Source of the DNA: Halobellus captivus
Lineage (GTDB): Archaea; Halobacteriota; Halobacteria; Halobacteriales; Haloferacaceae
DNA length: 64,000 bases
Direction: 5' to 3'
Assembly (NCBI RefSeq): GCF_003697845.1
Contig: NZ_RDQE01000001.1
Location: 62,001 to 126,000, forward strand
Below, in pieces: positions 6,343 through 14,027 of this stretch (positions are counted from its first letter, which is position 1; every line of letters begins with the position of its first letter). The notes beneath the pieces were generated by a model. The model was not told the DNA's origin, ran no database searches, and was given only the letters and a program-made list of their open reading frames with translations. Position numbers and translations under genes: made by a program.

Positions 6343-7209
6343 ATGCAGGTCGACGCTGTCGTGCTCGATATCGACGGAGTGTTGGTCGACGTCGCGGACT
6401 CCTACCGCCGGGCGATCATCGAGTCGGTCGACCGCGTCTGCGGGAAGACGATCGACCGCGGGGCGATCCAGTCGTTCAAGGACGCCGGCGGGTTCAACAA
6501 CGACTGGGAGCTGACGTACGCCGCCGCGCTCTTCGTGGTGGCCCGCCGCGAGGGGCTCCGGATGGACGTCGAGTCGTTCACGGACCGGATCGCCGCCGAC
6601 GAGGCGGGCGGGCTCGAGGCGGCCAAACGCGTCGTCGCCGACCTCCCCGACGTCGCACAGGCGCGGGTCCGCGACCAGTGGGACACCGATCGCCTCCACG
6701 CCGTGTTCCAGGCGCTGTACCTCGGCGAGGAGCTGTACCGAGAGCTCGAGGGCGGCGACCCGCCGGTGGCGACGACCGGGTACATCCACGACGAGCCCAC
6801 GCTCGTCGAGCCGGCGACGATCGACGCGTTGACCGAGCGGTTCGACGTGGGCGTGTTGACGGGACGACCCGCCGCGGAGGCCGAGATCGCGCTCGACCGC
6901 GTCGGCCTCGACGTCCCCGATCGCCACCGGTTCACCATGGACGACTGGGAGGAGGGGAAGCCGCATCCGCGGGCGCTCGTCGAACTCGCCGAGCGGTTCG
7001 ACGCCGACCGGGTCGCGTTCGCCGGCGACACCCTCGACGACGTGCGGACCGCCCGCAACGCGGACCGCGAGGACGGCGATCGCGTCTACTACGCGATCGG
7101 CGTGCTCACGGGCGGGCTCACGGGCGAGTCGGGACGGGAGAAGTTCGCCGACGCCGGTGCCGACGCGGTGCTCGCGGACGTGAACGAGCTTGTGGAGCTG
7201 TTGGAGTAG
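6343..7209 (+). CDS. HAD superfamily IA phosphatase, TIGR01548-like
   Basis: A 288-residue haloacid-dehalogenase hydrolase. Motif I is LDIDGVLVD (residues 8-16, nucleophile Asp9), motif II LTGRP (172-176), motif III GKPHPR (205-210) and motif [10 protein letters not shown] (226-233). The helical cap (about 20-150) contains the [12 protein letters not shown] stretch that I associate with the TIGR01548 subfamily found in haloarchaea and cyanobacteria. Such enzymes act on phosphorylated small molecules through an aspartyl-phosphate; the substrate here is unknown. Cytosolic, probably a single-gene transcript. Confidence 0.82.
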
Positions 7210-7234: not shown

Positions 7235-7310
7235 TGGGCCTTGCCGGATTCGAACCGGCGATCATTCCGTTATGAGCGGAACGCTTTGAGCCAGACTAAG
7301 CTAAAGGCCC
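7235..7310 (-). tRNA. tRNA with CAT anticodon (Ile2 or elongator Met)
   Basis: A complete cloverleaf: acceptor GGGCCTT/AAGGCCC, D-stem GCTT/AAGC, anticodon stem TTCCG/CGGAA around loop CTCATAA, T-stem GCCGG/CCGGC with loop TTCGAAT, and discriminator A. There is no intron and CCA is not encoded. The anticodon CAT fits elongator Met or the Ile2 tRNA that is modified to read AUA. The GGGCC start is shared with Ile tRNAs, and haloarchaeal elongator tRNA-Met usually carries an intron, so Ile2 is slightly favoured. Confidence 0.93.
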
Positions 7311-7337
7311 TCGTCGGAAGATCGATCCTGTTCCCCT

Positions 7338-7814
7338 TTAGGCTACCGGGTTCGAATCGAGCGACGGGAACACTTCATCGAGCAGGTAGTCCTCATACCA
7401 ATTGACGTGTTTCGTGTTACCGTTTTCAGCCGGAAGGTATCGGATCGTCATCTGCGTCTCACCGACGTCTTCGATCGGCACGAGGTACGCCTCGTCTCGG
7501 ATCGGCGTGTAGACCCCGAAGAGATCTATCTCTCCATCGTATCCTTCCCGTTCGTACCCTGATCGCTTCGTTCGGACGCTCCGCGTCCGAAACCGTATCG
7601 CTCCGTTCGTGGTCGCTTCGAACGCGGTCTTCACCTGGACACGATGAAAGTTTCCGTCGATCTCGATCACGAAATCGTACGGTTCGTTGTCGTACTCGGG
7701 CACGAGAACCGGCACTCCGCGACTCACTAACTCCGCTTTCACGATAGCTTCCGTCGCCTGTCCCCGCTCCTGTGGACCCGCAAGTGCGGTGTACTGTCGT
7801 TCGCGGTCGGACAT
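7338..7814 (-). CDS. PD-(D/E)XK endonuclease, intron-associated type
   Basis: A 158-residue protein with a restriction-enzyme-like core: E22 in the first helix, D47 in EPYDFVIEIDG, and Q60-V-K62 in HRVQVKTAF. A Gln in place of the second acidic residue is the pattern I recall for I-Ssp6803I, the nuclease of a cyanobacterial tRNA group I intron (PF11645-type). It is clearly lower in GC than the flanks and sits between two tRNA genes, one of which has an intron. Recent acquisition is likely. Whether it is a homing enzyme or a domesticated nuclease cannot be told. Confidence 0.72.
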   Translation of the reverse strand: MSDRERQYTALAGPQERGQATEAIVKAELVSRGVPVLVPEYDNEPYDFVIEIDGNFHRVQVKTAFEATTNGAIRFRTRSVRTKRSGYEREGYDGEIDLFGVYTPIRDEAYLVPIEDVGETQMTIRYLPAENGNTKHVNWYEDYLLDEVFPSLDSNPVA

Positions 7815-7884
7815 ACAGGGAGTATTTGGGAGATGAACAAATACGCCAGCCTGCTCGTGAAAGTGAACTTACTGCGGGAGGAAG

Positions 7885-7994
7885 CGCCGAAGCCAGGACT
7901 CGAACCTGGGACCGCCTCGTGACTGTGACGTTCGGGGGAACCGTCCACCGACCGTCGTAACAGCGAGGCGCTCTACCAACTGAGCTACTTCGGC
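7885..7994 (-). tRNA. tRNA-Asn (GTT) with a 37-nt intron
   Basis: Acceptor GCCGAAG/CTTCGGC with discriminator G (as expected for Asn), D-arm GCTC/GAGC, T-stem CCAGG/CCTGG with loop TTCGAGT. The anticodon stem CCTCG/CGAGG flanks an over-long loop. Around the splice sites a canonical bulge-helix-bulge forms: central helix CTGT/ACAG, bulges TAC and TCA, inner helix GACG/CGTC. Cutting after the second base of each bulge gives the 7-base loop CTGTTAA, anticodon GTT. The divergent gene at 8118 encodes the CCA-adding enzyme. Confidence 0.93.
7921..7957 (-). other. Archaeal BHB intron in tRNA-Asn
   Basis: 37 nt inserted after anticodon-loop position 37, the canonical archaeal site. Both 3-nt bulges and the 4-bp central helix are perfect, so it should be removed by the tRNA splicing endonuclease. 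It is too small to encode anything. Confidence 0.88.
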
Positions 7995-8117: not shown

Positions 8118-9482
8118 ATGGCCGACCTCGACGCGGTGCTGTCGCACGTCCGCGCTCGCGTCCTTCCGGACGCGGAGGAACGCGAACGGCTTCGGGAGAC
8201 GGCCGCCGAGCTGACCGAGCGCACCCGGGCGGCGATCGACGACCTCCCGGTCGAGGCCGACGTGGTCCAGGTGGGTTCGACCGCACGCGGGACGTGGGTC
8301 TCCGGCGACCGCGACATCGACCTCTTCGTTCGGTTCCCGGCCGACATCGACCGCGAGCAGCTCGAGGAGTACGGGCTCGCGGTGGGCCACGCGGTCCTTC
8401 CCGACGGCCACGAGGAGTACGCCGAACACCCCTACGTGAAGGGGACGTACGACGGCTTCGACGTCGACCTGGTCCCCTGTCACGACGTCGACGAGGCGAG
8501 CGAGTTGATCTCCGCGGTCGACCGAACCCCCTTCCACGACGCGTACCTCTCGGCGCGGCTCGACGACGACCTCGCCGGCGACGTGGTCCTCGCGAAGGCG
8601 TTCCTGAAGGGGATCGGCGCGTACGGCAGCGACCTCCGGACCGAGGGCTTCTCGGGATACCTCACCGAGCTGCTCGTCGCCGAGCTCGGCGGGTTCCGCC
8701 CGCTCGTCGAGTCCGCCCGGAGCTGGCATCCGCCGATGGAGTTCGATCCGGAGGGCCACGCCGAGCGGACGTTCGACGACCCGCTCGTCGTCGTCGATCC
8801 GACCGACCCGACGCGCAACGTCGCGGCGGTGCTGTCGGCGGCGAACCTGGCACGGTTTCAACACTACGCACGGGATCTGATCGCGAACCCCCGCGAGGGG
8901 CTGTTCGAACCGCGGACGGCCGATCCGCTCGACGCGGGAGGGGTCCGCGACCACCTCGACAGACGCGAGACGACGCCGGTCGCGGTCGTCTTCGACGCCC
9001 CAGACGTCGTCGACGACCAGCTGTGGCCCCAGCTCCGCCGGTCGCTCGACGGGACCGTTCGCGGGCTCGACGAACGCGGGTTCGACGCGCTCCGCTCGCG
9101 GGCGATGGTCGGCGACGACCGGGAACGGGCGGCCCTGTACGTCGAGGTCGAGACGCCGACTCGACCGGCGGTCGAGCGCCACGAGGGCCCGCCGGTCGCC
9201 GTGCGGAAACACGCCGACCGGTTCTACGAGTCGTACGCCGACGACGTCGACCCGGACACGTACGGGCCGTTCATCGAGGGCGACCGATACGTCGTCGAGC
9301 GCGAACGGGAGTTCACGACGGTCCGCGAGTACCTCGAGAGCGACGCCGCCGGCGACATCGCGCTCGGCGCCCGGGTCGAACCGGCGTTCGCGGAGCGAGA
9401 CGTCCTCGTCGGCGACGCCGTGGCGACGCTCGCCGACCGGTTCGGAAGGGGGCTCCGGGAGTTCTACGAACCCCATCCCTGA
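8118..9482 (+). CDS. cca: CCA-adding enzyme (class I tRNA nucleotidyltransferase)
   Basis: A 454-residue enzyme, close to the usual archaeal length. The nucleotidyltransferase head carries GSTARGTW (residues 53-60) and DIDLFV (66-71), the two catalytic carboxylates, with a third in FDVDLVPC near 116-122. The archaeal central, body and tail domains follow. It adds or repairs the 3' CCA end using CTP and ATP, which is needed here because neither local tRNA gene encodes CCA. The ATG at 8118 follows a non-conserved open stretch and starts the family N-terminus. Confidence 0.92.
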   Translation: MADLDAVLSHVRARVLPDAEERERLRETAAELTERTRAAIDDLPVEADVVQVGSTARGTWVSGDRDIDLFVRFPADIDREQLEEYGLAVGHAVLPDGHEEYAEHPYVKGTYDGFDVDLVPCHDVDEASELISAVDRTPFHDAYLSARLDDDLAGDVVLAKAFLKGIGAYGSDLRTEGFSGYLTELLVAELGGFRPLVESARSWHPPMEFDPEGHAERTFDDPLVVVDPTDPTRNVAAVLSAANLARFQHYARDLIANPREGLFEPRTADPLDAGGVRDHLDRRETTPVAVVFDAPDVVDDQLWPQLRRSLDGTVRGLDERGFDALRSRAMVGDDRERAALYVEVETPTRPAVERHEGPPVAVRKHADRFYESYADDVDPDTYGPFIEGDRYVVEREREFTTVREYLESDAAGDIALGARVEPAFAERDVLVGDAVATLADRFGRGLREFYEPHP

Positions 9483-13346: not shown

Positions 13347-14027
13347 TCACTTCATCGGGACGAACCGCACCGCGCCGTGGTCCTCGCGGTCGACGCCGTC
13401 GTCACGGACGGTCAGGCGGACGAGTCGCTGACTCCCGCCGGATCGGCCTCCGACGGCGCGGCCGAGGAGTCCGTCCGCGCGGGCATCGGGCTCCACCGGG
13501 GCAACGACGCGGCCGCCCTCCCGCACTCGCTCCGCGATCCCGTCGGGGACGTCCTCGGGAGCGGCGCAGGTCAGGTACGCCGCGTCGAACGGCGCGTGGT
13601 CCTCGAACGCGGTCCGGCCGTCCCCGGATCGAACGGTCACGTCGTATCCCAACCGCCGGAGACGCTCATCCGCGGCGTCGGCGAGCTCCGGGACGTACTC
13701 GACGCTGTAGACGTTCCCGTCGCCGACGACCTCGGCGACCACCGCGGCGTGGTAGCCACAGCCCGTACCGACCTCGAACACCCGGTCGCCGCCGGCGACC
13801 TCGAGGAGGTCGGTCATGACCGCCACCATGTGCGGCGCGCTTATCGTCTGGCCGTGACCGATCGGCAGCGGCCGGTCCGCGTACGCGTGTGCGCGGTTCC
13901 GCTCGGGGACGAACTCGTGTCGAGGGACCGCGGCGATCGCCGACAGGGTCCGATCGCTCACGTCGGTCCGCCGCCGGAGGTGCTCGACGAGCCGTCGACG
14001 CTCCGCGTCGTAGTCGGCGTCGTCCAT
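13347..14027 (-). CDS. pcm: Protein-L-isoaspartate O-methyltransferase
   Basis: 226 residues, the usual archaeal length. It keeps the PCMT active-site strand GHGQTISAPHMVA (58-70), SAM motif I VFEVGTGCGYHAA (83-95), VYSVEYVPEL, and the LTCAAPEDVP motif. The enzyme methylates isoaspartyl residues in damaged proteins so that they can revert to aspartate. It is the upstream gene of a tandem pair with the divergent paralogue and probably the functional repair enzyme. Confidence 0.88.
   Translation of the reverse strand: MDDADYDAERRRLVEHLRRRTDVSDRTLSAIAAVPRHEFVPERNRAHAYADRPLPIGHGQTISAPHMVAVMTDLLEVAGGDRVFEVGTGCGYHAAVVAEVVGDGNVYSVEYVPELADAADERLRRLGYDVTVRSGDGRTAFEDHAPFDAAYLTCAAPEDVPDGIAERVREGGRVVAPVEPDARADGLLGRAVGGRSGGSQRLVRLTVRDDGVDREDHGAVRFVPMK

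Follow-up and report, generated by a model that had tools for sequence, protein, structure and literature searches.

A free-standing PD-(D/E)XK nuclease gene between two altered tRNA genes suggests a selfish driver of archaeal tRNA introns

Why does a nuclease gene lie between two tRNA genes of a haloarchaeon, one of them interrupted by an intron? The window analysed here, a stretch of 64,000 nucleotides from Halobellus captivus, contains a HAD-family phosphatase gene, a tRNA(CAT) gene, the nuclease gene, an intron-bearing tRNA-Asn(GTT) gene and the cca gene, in this order (Table 1). A sequence-only reading of the window had described the nuclease as an I-Ssp6803I-like PD-(D/E)XK enzyme with active-site residues E22, D47, Q60 and K62, and had taken it for a former homing or mobile nuclease that targets tRNA loci. 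In relatives, the gene has persisted nearly exclusively at sites where the tRNA genes on both sides are altered, and the results presented below suggest that it is a selfish gene, which cuts tRNA genes and thereby drives archaeal tRNA introns.

Table 1. Features of the nuclease locus (window positions)
Feature	Position	Strand	Basis or remark
HAD-family phosphatase gene	6343..7209	plus	Flank, conserved synteny marker
tRNA(CAT)	7235..7310	minus	Rfam tRNA 69.1 bits; proposed second target
tRNA(CAT) anticodon arm, putatively protected form TTCCG-CTCATAA-CGGAA, pair 28-42 T-A	7265..7281	minus	
PF11645 PD-(D/E)XK nuclease gene, I-Ssp6803I-like	7338..7814	minus	158 aa
tRNA-Asn(GTT) with intron	7885..7994	minus	Rfam tRNA 61.0 bits, anticodon-loop insert; proposed main target when without the intron
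Archaeal intron, 37 nt, between tRNA positions 37 and 38	7921..7957	minus	Comparison with intronless relatives
CCA-adding enzyme gene (cca)	8118..9482	plus	Flank, conserved synteny marker; control tree built from cca

The assignment of the nuclease was borne out by family, residues and fold. Pfam placed the product in PF11645 (PDDEXK_5) with 120.7 bits (cut-off 26.1, E 5.9e-35). The four residues are at the positions claimed and were unchanged in all 41 aligned relatives, and D47, Q60 and K62 match the same residues of I-Ssp6803I (2OST) in the alignment. Numbered without the start Met, the invariant positions among the 41 relatives are G17, E21, Y45, D46, Q59, K61 and R124. When an AlphaFold2 model of the nuclease (mean pLDDT 85.0) was submitted to Foldseek, the top four PDB matches were the four chains of 2OST (best E 2.3e-9, TM 0.57-0.70), which was also the sole PDB match of a profile built from the 41 relatives (E 4.2e-15). 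The lower GC content of the gene was likewise confirmed, with 0.56-0.58 across the gene versus about 0.70 in its surroundings. The five closest named matches are all from Halorubrum (64-80% identity), and no second PF11645 member besides the window nuclease was found in its own genome. A T-arm-like sequence at the end of the gene, GGGTTCGAATC (about 7338-7362), was considered as an att remnant and dropped, as it falls in SNPV codons.

The intron-bearing tRNA-Asn gene escaped a default ARAGORN run, and was called as tRNA-Asn(GTT) with a 37-nt intron when introns were allowed, in agreement with Rfam and with the sequence-only reading. In the predicted fold of the pre-tRNA, a 4-bp helix flanked by two 3-nt bulges (bulge-helix-bulge, BHB) lies at the exon-intron joints, and judged by this fold the insert is an archaeal BHB intron. 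The other neighbour, labelled 'Met' by ARAGORN, is presumably a tRNA-Ile2, judged from its sequence. A further ARAGORN tRNA call in the window, at 13370-13463, has no clear identity and is perhaps spurious. The nuclease gene lies 70 bp from the tRNA-Asn gene, outside an intron of just 37 nt, and is therefore not intron-encoded. Such an anatomy, with a free-standing gene beside its putative target and an intron there that has no ORF of its own, fits intronless or collaborative homing.

To relate the intron to the nuclease, we searched 52 genomes of the Halorubrum group; loci and genomes are given below by our own L and G numbers. We located cca in 51 genomes and read the orthologous locus in each of them; G395, in which no cca was found, was left out of the locus counts and included in the 52-genome count of core sites. 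A nuclease match (E ≤ 0.001) was present in 31 of the 52 genomes, some of these matches being other paralogues. The tRNA-Asn gene was scorable at 50 loci; L068 has Ns at this gene and was left out of the intron counts, and L090, where no CAT tRNA was available to score, was left out of the stem counts. Between the two intact tRNA genes, the nuclease has no other long ORF beside it. The spacer measures 558-593 bp where the gene is present, 66-151 bp at the empty sites that the sequence-only reading had proposed to compare, and 326 and 455 bp at two remnant-bearing loci. The 23 intron-bearing loci held an intact nuclease in 20 cases, a broken one in none and no nuclease in 3, versus 3 intact, 5 broken or remnant and 19 absent at the 27 intronless loci. 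Intact nuclease and intron thus occurred together at 20 loci, each without the other at 3, and both were missing from 24 (Fisher p 6.6e-8). Among loci with any nuclease sequence, the gene was broken in 0 of 20 with the intron versus 5 of 8 without it (p 5.7e-4).

This correlation was also followed on the cca tree, which may itself be partly co-converted because cca lies about 0.1 kb from the tRNA gene. The tree requires at least 15 changes of the intron and at least 13 of the intact-nuclease state, and independent pairs on its supported branches agreed with the association 5 to 0 (median sign-test p 0.06). A two-trait likelihood test of intron versus intact nuclease gave a ratio of 32.4 (4 df), which we take as qualitative because some rates were at their bounds and a single tree was used; the tree-aware ratios for the associations were 32.4, 30.2 and 28.9. 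The three loci with an intron and no nuclease (L083 in G343, L088 in G391 and L108 in G206) are exceptions to the association and possibly carry immune remnants left after nuclease loss. A class-wide pattern for the intronless tRNA-Asn matched 29 of 391 genomes; it describes the form of this genus and a few others and is therefore uninformative for other genera.

The tRNA(CAT) gene, to which the sequence-only reading had assigned no role, looks like a second target that is protected in a different way. Its anticodon arm reads ACTCG-CTCATAA-CGAGT, with a C-G pair at 28-42, in 22 of 50 loci; the remaining loci have T-A at this pair, and their stem is fully paired except in L102. The intronless tRNA-Asn arm is CCTCG-CTGTTAA-CGAGG and has the core CTCG-CTNNTAA-CGAG (CTCGCTNNTAACGAG) in common with the ACTCG form of tRNA(CAT). 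The T-A pair was found at 21 of 23 loci with an intact nuclease versus 7 of 27 others, the latter comprising 0 of 5 with a broken or remnant gene and 7 of 22 without one. Intron and T-A stem were combined at 20 of 23 loci with an intact nuclease and at 1 of 26 others (p 1.2e-9, uncorrected for kinship). The core CTCGCTNNTAACGAG was missing from 19 of the 23 intact-nuclease genomes and found in 27 of the 29 others, and 49 of its 51 occurrences in the 52 genomes lie within tRNA(CAT) or tRNA-Asn genes. Because these very loci supplied the core, this count is not independent of the intron and stem tests; what it adds is that most carrier genomes have no further unprotected copy. Exceptions are L064 (G008) and L085 (G177), with an intact-looking nuclease and both arms unprotected, L082 (G354), with an intact-looking nuclease and an intronless tRNA-Asn, and G103, where an intact nuclease accompanies one core site outside the two tRNA genes.

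One locus pair suggests that the region is mobile. In the part of cca compared, L085 (G177) and L086 (G006) are 1.6% apart, and their flanks are 88-100% identical over 0.5 kb on the left and 92-100% over the first 1.5 kb on the right. Between tRNA(CAT) and tRNA-Asn, 60-base windows are just 55-90% identical, and the nucleases differ by 29% in protein sequence with a dS of 0.80. The cassette has been swapped between strains inside conserved flanks. Across 253 pairs of intact copies, nuclease and cca distances were uncorrelated (Spearman 0.09, p 0.14), as expected where a cassette moves on its own. The reading frame is open in all 23 intact copies, and their median dN/dS of 0.17 (194 of the 253 pairs had a computable dS) indicates purifying selection. 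The description as a "former" nuclease finds no support here: intact copies are under selection and are kept where the tRNA genes are protected. Gain, decay and loss of the nuclease have recurred in the group.

We consider it probable that the nuclease is a free-standing homing endonuclease of palindromic tRNA anticodon arms, against which a tRNA gene would become immune by gaining an intron or by swapping a stem base pair in a compensatory way. The anticodon arm is palindromic in DNA and hence usable as a site by a symmetric nuclease. As a homodimer or tetramer, the enzyme would bind this palindrome at the core CTCGCTNNTAACGAG and cut unprotected tRNA-Asn and tRNA(CAT) genes in incoming or mating-partner DNA. 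Recombinational repair would then copy the donor cassette, consisting of protected tRNA(CAT), nuclease and intron-bearing tRNA-Asn. The donor would be immune because the intron at 37/38 splits the tRNA-Asn palindrome and the 28-42 swap alters both half-sites of tRNA(CAT); splicing of the BHB intron by the host and the compensatory nature of the swap would keep both tRNAs functional. The intron would spread with the nuclease and be maintained by it. The cassette would replace unprotected alleles and decay once targets run out, and after the death of the nuclease its marks may be lost. Sister clades would act likewise on tRNA-Lys and tRNA-Arg, with introns as protection, and on tRNA-Asp and tRNA-Pro, with stem alleles.

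Several known systems resemble parts of this scheme. I-Ssp6803I shares with the window nuclease the PF11645 family, the fold, the D and Q-x-K residues and, according to PMC1995217, the link to a tRNA gene with an anticodon-region intron, and the title of Bonocora & Shub (2001), as cited there, names the tRNA anticodon region as its target. The gene of I-Ssp6803I, however, resides in a tRNA-fMet group I intron that splices itself, whereas the window nuclease gene stands alone, next to a short BHB intron without an ORF, and a base-pair swap would protect a second tRNA. A free-standing nuclease beside its target is also a feature of intronless homing by SegB, SegF, SegG and MobE. SegB lies between the T4 tRNA-Arg and tRNA-Ile genes, and without it the tRNA region is not preferentially inherited, as a passage of PMC2988022 states. 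These enzymes are GIY-YIG or HNH nucleases of lytic phages; here, a PD-(D/E)XK enzyme with a putative anticodon-arm site resides on archaeal chromosomes. Collaborative homing, outlined in parts of PMC3984707 and PMC2988022, likewise involves an ORF-less intron, which interrupts the site presumably cut by a free-standing nuclease encoded nearby, but the known cases are group I introns of phages and not archaeal BHB tRNA introns.

The association with tRNA genes extends far beyond one genus. PF11645 was detected in 192 of 391 halobacterial genomes, and the 159 loci that we examined, mostly the better-scoring ones, span 45 genera in 8 families, with 27 of them being copies of the Halorubrum tRNA-Asn locus. 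The nearest tRNA gene lay within 847 bp in 156 and within 600 bp in 154 of the 159 loci (median 163 bp); no nearby tRNA was called at the other three (L061, L112 and L170). With about 50 tRNA genes per genome, such proximity is estimated to arise by chance in 2-3% of cases. Twenty loci fetched after the pattern had been noticed all had an adjacent tRNA gene. The sequence-only reading had named relatives far from tRNA genes and a lack of intron/nuclease correlation as the results that would count against it. As neither was found, tRNA loci as target of the nuclease, possibly tied to the spread of the tRNA intron, are the best reading.

The neighbouring genes encode tRNA-Asp, Asn, Pro, Lys, Arg, Ser and Gly, and the nuclease tree (158 rows, one short domain being omitted) follows the tRNA neighbour with 20 label changes versus 85-94 in 50 shuffles. 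All nine nuclease loci linked to tRNA-Lys and all three linked to tRNA-Arg(TCT) have an intron in the tRNA. In five genera with 35 genomes, tRNA-Lys was intronless in 18, interrupted in 10 by pattern and 2 by locus, and unscored in 5; none of the 18 intronless genomes has a known nuclease at tRNA-Lys. Two genomes, G172 and G190, carry the tRNA-Lys intron with no nuclease in the surrounding stretch read, and in G262 the intron-bearing gene is at a contig end. Outside the genus, the tRNA-Asn intron recurs at L210 and L229 (Salinibaculum) and at L230 (Haloferax profundi), where the nuclease is on the opposite strand. At L211, the intron is in the CAT tRNA and the tRNA-Asn stem is changed. Two ARAGORN labels were rejected here: the 'Thr' beside L211 is this CAT tRNA with its intron, and the 'Gly(ccc)' beside L197 has the anticodon of tRNA-Arg(TCT).

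The nuclease-linked tRNA-Asp genes have no intron and occur with two covarying alleles of pair 28-42, A-T and G-C. In the 12 genera that have both types, nucleases of clade A accompany A-T and those of clades B and C accompany G-C at 56 of 57 loci, and the sole exception, L018, has a stop codon within the nuclease match. Outside these genera, L189, L194 and L151 combine clade A with a tRNA-Asp other than the A-T allele, the nuclease of L189 being intact and its tRNA-Asp having the other of the two alleles. The A-T allele is found in 114 of 391 genomes and therefore also occurs without the nuclease; 13 of 14 nuclease-free A-T loci read had no nuclease remnant, and L240 gave one weak match (E 6e-4). 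L239, L244 and L246 have three or four tRNA-Asp copies with the A-T stem and no nuclease found adjacent. At L017, L019, L030, L122, L130, L163, L174 and L214, the nuclease lies between copies of one tRNA gene, tRNA-Asp in archaea and tRNA-Ile in a viral contig, and tandem tRNA-Asp duplications are many.

Viruses carry the gene as well. Among 12 viral contigs with PF11645, the gene lies within a tRNA array in 5, and the stretch read contains no tRNA in 7. Of 27 records of named phages, five were read, and the gene is beside or overlaps tRNA genes in three (Synechococcus phage Sf-FR1, Salmonella phage SM5 and Pectobacterium phage My1). For Enterococcus phage EFP01, ARAGORN places a single tRNA no more than 0.2 kb from the nuclease gene, and in Haloarcula tailed virus 2 the stretch read contains none near it. 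In two phages, at L253 (1897-1917, 21 bases) and L255 (1887-1893, 7 bases), the nuclease gene runs at its 3' end into the tRNA gene that follows. We lean slightly towards a wider reading, in which one nuclease family forms a set of tRNA-gene drives in Halobacteria and phage tRNA arrays, each clade with its own anticodon arm, and intron and stem alleles are footprints of an arms race. Host lineages would survive thanks to a spliced intron or a compensatory swap, the latter often at pair 28-42.

The main rival is defence against incoming DNA, which would leave similar tracks. The nuclease would attack unprotected tRNA genes on virus or plasmid DNA in a restriction-like manner, with intron and stem swaps as marks of self, and the same tie of intact gene to protected tRNAs is predicted. 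Some archaeal tailed viruses have many tRNA genes, and PF11645 domains occur in phage-defence proteins, as noted in parts of PMC8651126 and PMC10952713, respectively. The best PADLOC match of the nuclease, however, is a homing endonuclease model (1.8e-6), the match to PDC-S01 being weak (4.9e-4), and single-site cassette exchange, decay in place and relatives in phage tRNA arrays come more naturally to a selfish gene. We regard defence as unlikely. Still less credit is due to hitch-hiking, by which intron, nuclease and stem variant would be a linked haplotype spread by ordinary recombination with no functional tie. All three do lie within 0.8 kb and are exchanged jointly, and the simple tables are uncorrected for linkage; but broken nucleases were confined to the intronless allele, and the tie recurs with other tRNAs in other clades (for tRNA-Asp across the 12 genera) and in opposite orientation in L230.

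An integrase-type element, in which the gene would be cargo of a virus or plasmid that had inserted itself at a tRNA gene while the intron would block re-integration, appears very improbable. tRNA genes are common integration sites, and Randau and Soll proposed that introns shield them from mobile elements (according to parts of PMC3293823 and PMC4090602). Their idea resembles ours in the role of the intron, but the agent here would be the next-door nuclease and not an integrase: the Halorubrum loci hold no other long ORF between intact tRNA genes, the spacers are short where the gene is absent, and paired 28-42 swaps are not predicted by an integrase. A housekeeping role in tRNA-gene repair or processing, with proximity serving co-expression, could account for the tRNA lying upstream of the nuclease in 149 of 156 tRNA-linked loci, but hardly for patchy presence, decay in place and the match of nuclease clade to stem allele, and is the least credible of these.

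A tRNA-cutting homing endonuclease would matter beyond this locus. According to a review (PMC4090602), it is not known how tRNA introns of archaea move, and we found no description of the association between this nuclease and tRNA genes in the titles and abstract openings of literature on PF11645, I-Ssp6803I, archaeal tRNA introns, those of Halorubrum included, and haloarchaeal homing endonucleases. If correct, our reading would provide a concrete and testable mechanism for the movement of tRNA introns, which together with paired stem changes would be immunity marks of a nuclease cassette. It would account for covarying allele switches in some archaeal tRNA stems that leave function unchanged, and extend free-standing homing to archaeal chromosomes. 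If the family does form tRNA-gene drives, the way in which rare tRNA introns and stem alleles arise, spread and disappear in these archaea would record an arms race with selfish nucleases and offer a mechanism of intron gain. Genome sequence would also suffice to identify the natural targets of the family, namely the anticodon arms of particular tRNAs.

The tRNA-Pro genes follow the stem-allele pattern. An arm of the CGCTGC type was found in 16 of 52 genomes of the genus, including all 8 with a tRNA-Pro-linked nuclease. Loci near tRNA-Pro are L022, L023, L031, L125, L128, L159, L173, L183, L058, L059 and L188. The nucleases linked to this tRNA are often single ORFs of about 276-450 aa with two tandem PF11645 domains, as if a dimer had been fused for a less symmetric site.
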